This document shows, piece after piece, positions 38,524-43,698 of a DNA stretch of 64,000 nt (position 1 is its first letter; each line of letters opens with the position of its first letter). The notes under the pieces were generated by a model, which had not been told where the DNA came from, made no database searches, and worked only from the letters and a program-made list of their open reading frames with translations. The DNA comes from Epibacterium ulvae. Its GTDB lineage: Bacteria; Pseudomonadota; Alphaproteobacteria; Rhodobacterales; Rhodobacteraceae. A program made the translations under genes and the position numbers. The stretch lies in assembly GCF_900102795.1 (NCBI RefSeq), contig NZ_FMWG01000001.1:186001-250000 (forward strand). The letters run 5' to 3'.

Positions 38524-38560
38524 ATTTGTGATCACAGTTTTTGAGGGTGTGATCACAAAT
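38524..38560. promoter_or_regulatory. Paired TGTGATCACA operator upstream of sucC
   Basis: ATTTGTGATCACA (38524-38536) and TGTGATCACAAAT (38548-38560) are perfect inverted repeats around an 11-bp centre. Each arm itself contains the self-complementary core TGTGATCACA (38527-38536 and 38548-38557), so there are two dyads 21 bp apart centre to centre. The same core occurs twice upstream of sdhC. Confidence 0.8.
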
Positions 38561-38702
38561 CTTGCATCAAGTTTCCTGGCTGATTCGGTTTTGGATAAAA
38601 CTTCATTCAAGTTCTATTTTCAGTTTCTTTCCTTTAGGCGCGAGTCTTTCGTGACTGGGGTGCAGGAAAGCGTGGAGACTGATGCGTGAAAGCCTACGAA
38701 AC

Positions 38703-38729
38703 AAAAAGGCGCCCCAACAGGAGCGCCTT
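38703..38729 (-). terminator. Rho-independent terminator of mdh
   Basis: On the minus strand AAGGCGC, a loop of about ten bases and GCGCCTT continue into TTT and GTTTC, 25 bp after the mdh stop. Confidence 0.85.
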
Positions 38730-38753
38730 GATGCAAGTTTCTGGTGAGCTGGC

Positions 38754-39716
38754 TTAGGCCAGAGAACCATCGATGCCCTTGCAGGCATCCATCAGGCCTT
38801 TTACAGCGTTGACGGAGTTGTCGAACATCTCTTGCTCTTCTTTGGTCAGCGCGATGTCAACGACGCGCTCGATGCCGTTTGCGCCAATCACGGTGGGCAC
38901 GCCCACATACATGTCTTTTACGCCCAGCTCGCCGTCACAATATGCAGCACAGGGCAGAACGCGTTTTTGGTCTTTCAGGTAGGCTTCGGCCATTTCGATA
39001 CCTGAAGTTGCTGGTGCATAGAAAGCAGAGCCGGTTTTCAGCAGGCCAACGATTTCTGCGCCACCATCACGGGTGCGTTGCAGGATCGCATCCAGCTTTT
39101 CTTGGGTGGTCCAGCCCATTTTCACCAGATCAGGCAAAGGGATACCTGCAACGGTTGAATAGCGCACGGAAGGGACCATGGTGTCGCCGTGGCCACCTAG
39201 AACAAAAGCGGTAACGTCTTTCATGGAGACGTCAAATTCTTCAGCGAGGAAGTGACGGAAGCGGGCAGAATCCAGGACGCCAGCCATGCCGCAGACCTTG
39301 TTTGTGGGCAGGCCAGAGAACTTCTGCAGCGCCCAGACCATTGCGTCCAGCGGGTTGGTGATGCAGATCACAAACGCATCAGGTGCGTTGTCGCGGATGC
39401 CTTCACCAACGGATTTCATCACTTTGAGGTTGATGCCCAAAAGGTCATCACGGCTCATGCCAGGTTTGCGTGCAACGCCAGCGGTCACGATGCAAACATC
39501 TGCGCCTGCGATATCGGCGTAATCCTGTGTGCCGCGCAACGACGCGTCAAAGCCCTCGGAAGGACCGGATTCAGCGATGTCGAGCGCCTTACCTTCTGGC
39601 AGGCCTTCAGCGATGTCAAAGAGAACAACGTCACCGAGTTCTTTAAGCGCCGCGAGGTGAGCAAGCGTGCCACCGATGTTACCAGCGCCAATAAGGGCAA
39701 TTTTGGGTCGAGCCAT
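38754..39716 (-). CDS. mdh: Malate dehydrogenase
   Basis: This NAD-dependent enzyme of the TCA cycle belongs to the LDH-like type (320 residues). It starts [20 protein letters not shown] (Rossmann loop GAGNIGG) and has [24 protein letters not shown], the catalytic His in [11 protein letters not shown], and the substrate Arg in the mobile loop. It has its own terminator and a long upstream region, so it is transcribed apart from sucC. Confidence 0.98.
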
Positions 39717-40152
39717 TGGAATATCTCTCCGGTCCGGTTGAAATTCTTAGAGGTGCCTACGTTCTTCTGCGCGTTCGTGCAAGGGTTCTGCATCGCAGCA
39801 AGATCGTATGCGTGGCGATCCTGTCATAGGTTTGGGCGCTAAACAAAATACAAACAAAGGGCTTTGGCGGCGGAAATCGCTGTAATTTTTTGCGTGGTTT
39901 TTGCACTTTGACGGAGGCAGTTGTGAAAGTGAACGCAGATCAAATGGGGTGTCCAGACCGAAAACGGCTTTGATTCTGTGCGGGTATCAAGCGTCTGGGA
40001 AGCTTCCACCATGTGTTCCCACGGATTAGGCGAAAATTTCCCGGATCACTGCTAGAGGCGTACGTGATGACCGTGACATTCCAGTCGAAAGGTGATCGCA
40101 GAATGCATAGGCTGTGCCTGACACATTACTGTGAAGTCCTTTGGCGCGCCGT
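39717..40152. other. Spacer upstream of mdh (no gene seen)
   Basis: This 436-bp stretch lies between mdh and the small secreted protein gene, both on the minus strand. It must contain the mdh promoter and leader (GGAGAG lies eight bases before the ATG). I find no ORF with start, SD and plausible composition, no copy of TGTGATCACA and no clear hairpin. Confidence 0.6.
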
Positions 40153-40470
40153 TTAAGCGTCGCTTTCAAACGCGGGGGCAACTTCGGCGAGTTTTTCGTA
40201 AGATTGCCCGGATGCGACCAAACAGGTCAGGCCTGTGGGTGTGGTCACTGTGATTGTCCAAGTGCCCGTATCTGAGGAGGCAAAGGTTTCCATGACCACG
40301 CCTTGCTGGCCAATTCCAATACTTTGTCTGCTTTCGCCATATTTTTCTGACAGCCGCTTCACCACGACATCCCGTGGGGCGCAATTGCGACCCGCGTTCT
40401 GTGCGCCAGCAACCTGAGTGGAGAGCAAAAGCCCTGCTCCGGCAATCAAGAGTGTCGTTGTCTTCAACAT
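40153..40470 (-). CDS. Small secreted protein, unknown
   Basis: From ATG 40470 the product has 105 residues with a clear signal peptide (MLKTTTLLIAGAGLLLSTQV, cut near AGA-QN). The mature domain of about 82 residues has two Cys (in NCAPRDVVVKRL and LTCLVASGQ) and alternating polar/hydrophobic strands (GTWTITVTTPTG). AAAGGG lies upstream of the start. The frame is open further upstream, but that part is not protein-like. The function is unknown. Confidence 0.75.
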   Translation of the reverse strand: MLKTTTLLIAGAGLLLSTQVAGAQNAGRNCAPRDVVVKRLSEKYGESRQSIGIGQQGVVMETFASSDTGTWTITVTTPTGLTCLVASGQSYEKLAEVAPAFESDA

Positions 40471-42264: not shown

Positions 42265-42468
42265 ATGAAACTTTATCGTTTGTTGACCGAAGACGACACT
42301 TCAGCCTTTTGCCACAAAGTGACCGAGGCCCTGAATAAGGGCTGGGAGCTGCAAGGTGATCCCACATATGCCTTTGATGCCGCGCGTGGTGTCATGCGCT
42401 GCGCGCAGGCTGTGGTGAAAGAGGTTGAGGGAACATACACACCAGAGACCAAACTCGGAGCACATTGA
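42265..42468 (+). CDS. DUF1737 domain protein
   Basis: The 67-residue protein starts MKLYRLLTEDDTSAFCHKVT and continues with EALNKGWELQGDPTYAFD, the DUF1737 pattern (Y-x-L-x-x-x-D ... L-x-x-GW-x-L-x-G-x-P). The function is unknown. AAAGGAG lies upstream of ATG 42265. It lies three bases before mch, so the two are translationally linked. Confidence 0.85.
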   Translation: MKLYRLLTEDDTSAFCHKVTEALNKGWELQGDPTYAFDAARGVMRCAQAVVKEVEGTYTPETKLGAH

Positions 42469-42471
42469 CCT

Positions 42472-43518
42472 ATGGTAAACACCCGTCCGGCGAAAACCAA
42501 TTCAGGTAGATTTTTTGAAGATTACAGCGTGGGGGACGTGATCGCCCATGCGGTGCCGCGCACCGTGTCAGGGGGGGAGCGTGCGCTGTACCATGCGCTT
42601 TATCCAGCCCGTCATGCGCTTTATTCTTCGGATGAATTTGCCCGCCGGTCGGGTTTGCCCAAATCGCCGCTGGACGATCTGGCGGCGTTTCATGTGGTGT
42701 TTGGCAAAACGGTGCCAGATGTGTCCCTGAACGCGGTGGCCAATCTTGGGTATGCTGAAGGGCGCTGGCTGAAACCGGTCTATGAGGGCGATACGCTGCG
42801 CTCTGAATCTGAGGTGATTGGGGTTAAGCAGAATTCCAATGGGAAATCCGGTGTCGTCTATGTGCGCACGCGTGGTTTGAATCAGCGTGATGAAACAGTG
42901 ATGGAATATGTTCGCTGGGTCATGGTGCGCAAAGGCAATCTGGACGCGCCCGTGCCTGAAACGGTGATTCCAGAATTGCAAAAGGTGATTCCGGCAGATC
43001 AGCTGGTCATCCCTGAAGGACTGGATTTTAGCTCTTATGATTTTGCAGCCTCTGGTGAAAGCCACCGCTGGGGCGATTATGAGATCGGAGAGACCATCGA
43101 TCATGTGGATGGTGTCACAGTGGAAGAAGCCGAACACATGATGGCCACACGGCTATGGCAGAATACAGCTAAGGTGCATTTTGATACAACGGCGCGTCCC
43201 GATGGGACCCGGTTAATCTATGGCGGGCATGTGATTTCGATGGCGCGGGCGTTGTCGTTTAACGGCTTGGCCAATGCGCAGATCATTGTGGGTTTGAATG
43301 GCGGCGCACATGCCAACCCCTGTCTTGCGGGGACTACAATCCGCGCCTGGTCTGAGGTTTTGGATAAGGCTGAAACCACCGCGCCGGGTGTCGGGGCAAT
43401 TCGTTTGCGACTGGTTGCGACCAGTGGTGGTGCGCCGTTTGAACTGAAAGGCGAGGATGGCAAATACCGTCCAGAGGTTTTGCTGGATCTCGATTATTGG
43501 GCTTTGATGCCCCTCTAA
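42472..43518 (+). CDS. mch: Mesaconyl-CoA hydratase
   Basis: Mch hydrates mesaconyl-C1-CoA to beta-methylmalyl-CoA in the ethylmalonyl-CoA pathway. The 348-residue protein has two MaoC-type hotdog domains: the first starts GRFFEDYSVGDVIAHAVPRT with NAVANLGYAEGRWLKPVYEG, and the second starts WGDYEIGETIDHVDGVTVEE with LIYGGHVISMARALSFNGL. That double-hotdog architecture and length fit R. sphaeroides Mch. A terminator follows. Confidence 0.93.
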   Translation: MVNTRPAKTNSGRFFEDYSVGDVIAHAVPRTVSGGERALYHALYPARHALYSSDEFARRSGLPKSPLDDLAAFHVVFGKTVPDVSLNAVANLGYAEGRWLKPVYEGDTLRSESEVIGVKQNSNGKSGVVYVRTRGLNQRDETVMEYVRWVMVRKGNLDAPVPETVIPELQKVIPADQLVIPEGLDFSSYDFAASGESHRWGDYEIGETIDHVDGVTVEEAEHMMATRLWQNTAKVHFDTTARPDGTRLIYGGHVISMARALSFNGLANAQIIVGLNGGAHANPCLAGTTIRAWSEVLDKAETTAPGVGAIRLRLVATSGGAPFELKGEDGKYRPEVLLDLDYWALMPL

Positions 43519-43550
43519 ATCTATCCTGATTTGAGGGTAGATTTGATCAG

Positions 43551-43588
43551 AACTGCGCATCGGTCCCGCCGGTGCGCAGTTTTGCTTT
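43551..43588 (+). terminator. Rho-independent terminator of the mcl2-mch operon
   Basis: AACTGCGCA (43551-43559) and TGCGCAGTT (43573-43581) pair in a 9-bp stem, followed by TTGCTTTG. It ends the mch transcript before the sdh promoter region. Confidence 0.85.
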
Positions 43589-43668
43589 GAGGAATGTGAT
43601 CTACAGAGAGACTCAATTCGGCAAAATAAATCTGATAGTTTTTATCGGATAGCGTCTTGTGGTCATTT

Positions 43669-43698
43669 TGTGATCACTAAGTAATTGCTGTGATCACA
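43669..43698. promoter_or_regulatory. Paired TGTGATCACA operator upstream of sdhC
   Basis: TGTGATCACT (43669-43678) and TGTGATCACA (43689-43698) are two copies of the self-complementary core, 20 bp apart centre to centre, 115-144 bp before the sdhC ATG. The first has one mismatch at its edge. The core is the same as the pair upstream of sucC. Confidence 0.78.

Follow-up and report, generated by a model that had tools for sequence, protein, structure and literature searches.

The 64,000-nucleotide stretch of Epibacterium ulvae (Rhodobacteraceae) analyzed here, referred to as the window (contig NZ_FMWG01000001.1, positions 186,001 to 250,000), contains two runs of tricarboxylic acid (TCA) cycle genes headed by sucC and sdhC, each preceded by two copies of a short palindrome. 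This locus raises the question of whether the two pairs form a shared operator of one regulator, as had been proposed from the sequence of the window, and which protein that regulator might be. Comparison among genomes strongly supports such an operator, because all 29 loci picked by the pair alone lie before sucC (25) or sdhC (4), and because 68 of 75 listed pairs show a spacing of 20 or 21 bp; the proposal of one regulator acting on both pairs is thereby supported. This regulator is very likely AkgR, which belongs to the GntR/FCD proteins. The whole explanation, in which the pairs would be AkgR operators, two dimers would co-activate sucC and sdhC, and akgR would be autorepressed, is assigned a probability of roughly 0.9.

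Paired dyads in the window and in the source genome

The two pairs consist of the following dyads:

38527..38536, no strand: dyad proximal to sucC, TGTGATCACA
38548..38557, no strand: dyad distal to sucC, TGTGATCACA, 21 bp from the proximal one, start to start
43669..43678, no strand: dyad distal to sdhC, TGTGATCACT
43689..43698, no strand: dyad proximal to sdhC, TGTGATCACA, 20 bp from the distal one

The original prediction gave these coordinates, both spacings and the single mismatch before sdhC exactly. Matches to TGTGATCACA with at most one mismatch number eight in the window, against 2.39 expected, and none of 100 shuffled sequences reaches eight. The remaining four copies carry one mismatch each, and each is located within an open frame:

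45541 and 46335: one-mismatch copies within sdhA
55317: one-mismatch copy within the frame 55284-55745
61720: one-mismatch copy within the frame 60950-62290

The earlier statement that the window holds no further non-coding copy therefore stands. The description of the two gene runs as divergent TCA operons holds for their direction alone, as mdh and three plus-strand genes stand between the pairs.

In the 4.0-Mb source genome, exact TGTGATCACA occurs 20 times, and two exact copies separated by 8–14 bp occur only once. Beyond the window there are 17 exact copies, of which twelve fall within frames of at least 250 codons and five do not (L005, L006, L007, L016 and L017:13606). As a side observation, single exact copies are found 86 bp (L016 at 1501) and 72 bp (L014 at 1501) from the starts of LysR-type regulator genes, the L014 copy also lying within another open frame.

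Conservation of the pair across the family

Conservation was assessed in 198 genomes of the same GTDB family, one per genus code. At least one pair of GTGATCAC with a gap of 4–34 bp is present in 176 of them, and the reversed-pattern control yields none; two exact copies of TGTGATCACA with a gap of 8–14 bp are found in 119. The commonest number of pairs per genome is two. Absence from close relatives and a random scatter with respect to promoters had been named as the outcomes that would speak against a shared operator, and neither is observed, given this distribution and the position of the 29 pair-picked loci. Among the 75 plus-strand pairs listed, for which spacings of 12–42 bp were allowed, 62 are spaced at 21 bp, six at 20 bp and seven otherwise. 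Six of these seven off-spacing pairs lie inside open frames of at least 150 codons, as expected of chance matches, and the seventh (G187, spacing 13) is directly upstream of an AkgR homologue.

A further 40 pairs also precede SucC or SdhC, 38 of them in 20 chosen regions and two in the window, which brings the count to 69 of 69 pairs in 50 loci; the 20 regions were selected because they contained pairs or AkgR, and some genomes are represented twice among the 50 loci. The distance from pair to ATG is 95–154 bp for SucC and 107–191 bp for SdhC, and in the window the nearer GTGATCAC core is 113 bp from the sucC ATG and 115 bp from the sdhC ATG. The pairs unlinked to suc in four genomes (G001, G028, G063 and G093) all precede SdhC. 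In addition, ten genomes reached via named loci, including Cereibacter ovatus, Cereibacter flavus, Roseobacter sp. MED193 and Ruegeria marina, carry two or three pairs each. Outside the family, a pair at 20 or 21 bp is found in only two of 285 alphaproteobacteria, the reversed-pattern control giving five matches in one genome (G285), and the four family members within the alphaproteobacterial sample carry two pairs each together with the AkgR protein. Three or more tandem cores were also noted upstream of sucC in L152, L158 and L230 (Pseudotabrizicola, Gemmobacter and Paracoccus sp. IB05).

AkgR as the probable regulator

AkgR of Rhodobacter sphaeroides, which we take to be RSP_0981, is the leading candidate for a protein that would bind both pairs. 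According to the available part of one study, the GntR-type regulator RSP_0981 is predicted to regulate succinyl-CoA synthetase, succinate dehydrogenase and 2-oxoglutarate dehydrogenase (PMC4344238). The accessible portion of a second describes GTGATCAC as the R. sphaeroides AkgR motif and AkgR as an activator (PMC6365646, citing a 2015 mBio paper). The source genome encodes a 217-residue homologue, P0001, on another contig, with GntR (PF00392, E 1e-12) and FCD (PF07729, E 1e-16) domains; this protein is a putative orthologue of RSP_0981.

Sites and regulator are distributed together. With AkgR counted as present at a best E of at most 1.2e-80 (the next weaker values being 9.5e-60 and 3.2e-56), 172 of the 198 genomes have both the pair and the homologue, 19 have neither, four have the pair only and three the protein only (Fisher p 9e-20, shared descent ignored). 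The three protein-only genomes are G040, in which the pair is present with one mismatch per copy, G155, from which no SucC was recovered, and G147, which has only a distant SucC homologue. Furthermore, no exact GTGATCAC was found within 400 bp of true sucC in 16 genomes without AkgR and without the pair, and AkgR at E<=1e-50 was found in none of the 285 alphaproteobacteria outside the family. Two of these 16 genomes (loci L252 and L258) keep the near-dyads TGTGATAACA and TGCGATCACG at -139 from sucC, with one or two mismatches and at the place where relatives have the distal dyad, as if sites decay once the regulator is gone.

The same question was addressed on a SucC tree of 62 rows, in which G040 was labelled by hand as site-bearing, though it counts as pair-less in the 198-genome table, and from which five of the 22 pair-less genomes are missing (G122, G155 and G172, with no SucC; G021 and G147, with a distant homologue). 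On this tree the site changes seven times and the regulator 11 times, and the starred branches force two site changes and yield two independent contrasts. In these two contrasts AkgR moves with the site in 1.9 on average, and never in the opposite direction. Altogether, the association between pair and AkgR is strong, and its repeated independent origin is only modestly supported.

A further link to AkgR is provided by its own promoter. An exact TGTGATCACA lies 7 bp before the ATG of the P0001 gene, and GTGATCAC is found within 140 bp upstream in 32 of 36 homologue loci, 30 of which are the best matches to the protein of the source genome, so that close relatives dominate, and six of which were added to examine synteny. 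In 26 of these 32 loci the site takes the form TTGACN-N11-TGTGATCACA, and in 31 the dyad centre is 12–16 bp before the akgR start codon. The dyad is so near the start codon (L078-L112) that little space is left for a leader, and the akgR mRNA may be leaderless. By a count made by eye, at least 13 of the 198 genomes have the homologue no more than 20 kb away from a suc or sdh pair. At L108 a homologue stands about 0.75 kb past sdhB; this homologue is about 76% identical to P0001 and 94% identical to the named Cereibacter ovatus homologue.

Promoter geometry and proposed mechanism

The pair also appears to keep a defined distance to the promoter that it would control. Two candidate promoter elements of sdhC were placed in the window:

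43757..43762, plus strand: candidate -35 element GTGACA of sdhC, whose position is kept in relatives and which starts at the 60th base after the proximal GTGATCAC
43779..43784, plus strand: candidate -10 element TAAAAC of sdhC

An inverted repeat, TTAGCG...CGCTAA (43752-43781), spans these two elements and might be the site of another regulator.

Among 35 distinct pair-bearing sdhC promoters, several of them from one genus, GTGAC is located 57–61 bp after the proximal dyad in 26. It occurs at 48, 48, 69, 70 and 78 bp in five others and is absent from four. The five exceptional distances are 0 to 1.5 bp off whole turns of 10.5 bp, in a phase list that covers 31 of the 35 rows, the four without the motif being omitted and a single value being used for rows with two. 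In 64 distinct sucC promoters, T is found at the positions 48–50 bp after the dyad in 61–83%, about one turn closer. Of 95 sucC upstream stretches, which are not independent and many of which were picked for having the pair, 74 carry a pair, 16 no core and one a core with a one-mismatch copy, and four are cut short. Because sucC promoters carry two dyads or none, the functional unit seems to consist of both dyads, and the fixed two-turn spacing together with this two-or-none pattern suggests cooperative binding.

In the proposed mechanism, AkgR, a GntR-family protein with an FCD ligand domain, would bind the palindrome TGTGATCACA, and two dimers would sit on one face of the DNA, two helical turns apart, upstream of the -35 elements of sucC and sdhC. 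The sucC operon probably continues through sucD, sucA, sucB and lpd, so that 2-oxoglutarate dehydrogenase, succinyl-CoA synthetase and succinate dehydrogenase would rise and fall as one block. A position upstream of -35 suits an activator, whereas a dyad inside the akgR core promoter suits autorepression, as binding to this single dyad would block transcription. Cooperativity, position-dependent activation and autorepression are putative features of the system, deduced from the arrangement of the sites, and a ligand is presumed.

A more specific form of this mechanism is about evenly balanced between right and wrong. It holds that the paired AkgR sites make up a rigid double-dyad module, whose distance to its promoters is fixed in whole helical turns throughout a family, that the lone akgR dyad represses, that the number and position of dyads set activation or repression, and that module and regulator are lost together. 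The sdhC distances behind it are about 58 bp from the proximal dyad to the candidate -35 element and the rarer values of 48, 69–70 and 78 bp.

Alternative explanations and conflicting observations

Several other proteins could in principle account for the pairs. CRP recognizes the half-sites TGTGA and TCACA, which raises the possibility of a CRP/FNR-type site of the form TGTGA...TCACA. CRP sites have 6 bp between these half-sites, whereas in the window dyads they abut, and this candidate was rejected as hardly credible. It is also very improbable that a different GntR/FCD paralogue binds the pairs. One such protein, the nearest paralogue among those considered and encoded at G000:C8:72066-72752, is a GntR relative, a second AkgR match was counted in G000, and a wider subfamily may share the palindrome (available part of PMC6365646; L273, see below). 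At E<=1e-50, however, this paralogue is found in only 92 of the 198 genomes, and it is missing from 85 of the 176 genomes with a pair, compared with four from which AkgR is missing. Moreover, GTGATCAC is absent from the intergenic stretch read upstream of the paralogue, which adjoins a gene that reads like one for a polyamine-binding protein. CceR (RSP_1663), a LacI-type regulator of central carbon metabolism, is predicted to act on sdh and mdh in R. sphaeroides, and yet the motif predicted for it, [A/G/T]GTT-N6-8-AAC[A/C/T], does not fit TGTGATCACA (both from the accessible part of PMC4344238). GTT-N6-8-AAC was not found when the dyads were compared with it by eye, and CceR was set aside as a most implausible binder of these sites.

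A different alternative keeps AkgR as the regulator and assumes that its dimers bind independently, the spacing reflecting only contacts with RNA polymerase. A single dyad seems to serve at akgR, and the case for cooperating dimers is one of geometry. The constancy of the 20/21-bp spacing among the listed pairs speaks against this view, as does the lack of any lone-dyad sucC promoter among the 95 upstream stretches described above, and independent binding is considered unlikely.

The assignment of the pairs to AkgR as cooperating operators also has to face a number of observations that weigh against it. The site of the P0001 gene in the source genome faces a divergent open reading frame (ORF) as well, and might serve that ORF. 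No GTGATCAC lies within 140 bp in four of the 36 homologue loci, L108 included, and among 80 named loci only 24 show GTGATCAC at most 90 bp from where the protein match begins. Among the pairs themselves, one with a 21-bp spacing (G042:C16; L288, 1994-2022) falls within a long open frame that is not near suc or sdh, as many as six pairs occur in one genome (G135), genomes with more than two having been inspected only in part, and L134 (Szabonella alba) has a single core before sdhC. The pair occurs without a close AkgR in G019, G033, G096 and G114, the completeness of which is 91%, 74%, 77% and 100%, respectively; G033 has a weaker AkgR match (3e-56). Scans for the sigma-70 consensus find no promoter in the sucC or sdhC region, so the core promoters given above are drawn from conservation only. 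In the SucC tree just two contrasts are independent, and a sign test on two cannot reach significance. Finally, the motif of the primary AkgR paper is known here only through the available part of PMC6365646.

Relation to known systems

The AkgR regulon of R. sphaeroides is the closest counterpart of the window locus. As far as the available parts of the sources go, the likeness comprises the GntR family, the same predicted targets and the motif GTGATCAC. A GntR-family regulator, this motif, sites at sucC and sdhC, and co-occurrence of sites and regulator were all found here, and the window locus very likely represents the AkgR regulon of a further genus. The differences are the genus itself and the location of akgR on another contig than sdh; the source genome also has a dyad at the akgR start that L108 lacks within the distance given above. 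Regulator, targets and motif are already known, and the locus is explained by a published regulator. In the literature covered, to which the primary AkgR paper does not belong, no mention was found of the 20/21-bp double dyad as a family-wide unit, of helical phasing to the sdhC -35 element, of the dyad in the akgR promoter or of site loss with the regulator. A literature search for TGTGATCAC together with GntR gave nothing beyond one SETBP1 title, and the available parts of PMC11323563 and PMC7471390 hold nothing on the motif.

Other systems are more distant. PS417_07240 of Pseudomonas simiae, encoded in a deoxyribonate cluster, is 32% identical to AkgR and was proposed to recognize the same palindrome; it differs in its target genes and in its site, a lone palindrome between -47 and -40 relative to the start codon rather than a pair (accessible part of PMC6365646). 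CceR resembles AkgR as a central carbon regulator predicted on sdh and mdh and differs in its LacI family and its GTT-N6-8-AAC motif (available part of PMC4344238). McbR (PDB 4p9f), the nearest solved chain to the AkgR alignment (E 8e-22), is a relative by sequence only. In L273 (G358, outside the family), at about 970-1020, a pair of exact GTGATCAC is accompanied by a third, TGATCACA-like copy, with spacings of about 21 bp. This pair, one of the two non-family pairs, is directly upstream of a gene for a GntR relative 29% identical to AkgR. Based on this relative and on PS417_07240 (as described in the part of PMC6365646 at hand), the palindrome may belong to a wider subfamily of which AkgR would be the TCA-cycle branch.

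For the family as a whole, these results tie three consecutive enzyme complexes of the TCA cycle to one regulator in most of the genera sampled, and this family is large. They also provide a rule for annotating the regulon, namely GTGATCAC twice, 20–21 bp apart. Genomes without sites and regulator indicate that the coupling can be dropped, so that its cost and benefit are open to testing.

Genes around the pairs

The genes that the pairs would control are arranged as follows:

37221..38414, minus strand: sucC, succinate-CoA ligase beta (NCBIfam), first gene of the putative suc operon
34916..35797, minus strand: sucD, from ORF and gene order, named from reading the sequence, probably in the same operon
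31733..34684, minus strand: sucA, 2-oxoglutarate dehydrogenase E1 (NCBIfam), probably in the same operon
43813..44196, plus strand: sdhC (Pfam and NCBIfam), first gene of the sdh run

Family searches of sucC, sdhC, mdh and sucA agree with the gene names. On the minus strand the order is sucC, two other ORFs, sucD, sucA, a sucB-like and an lpd-like gene, with sucD, sucB and lpd named from reading the sequence. The two extra ORFs between sucC and sucD, on the same strand, are 35816-36655, which reads like a glycosyltransferase gene, and 36784-37215. On the plus strand the order is sdhC, sdhD, sdhA, an extra ORF and sdhB, and the ORF between sdhA and sdhB (46416-47240) reads like a sulfotransferase gene.

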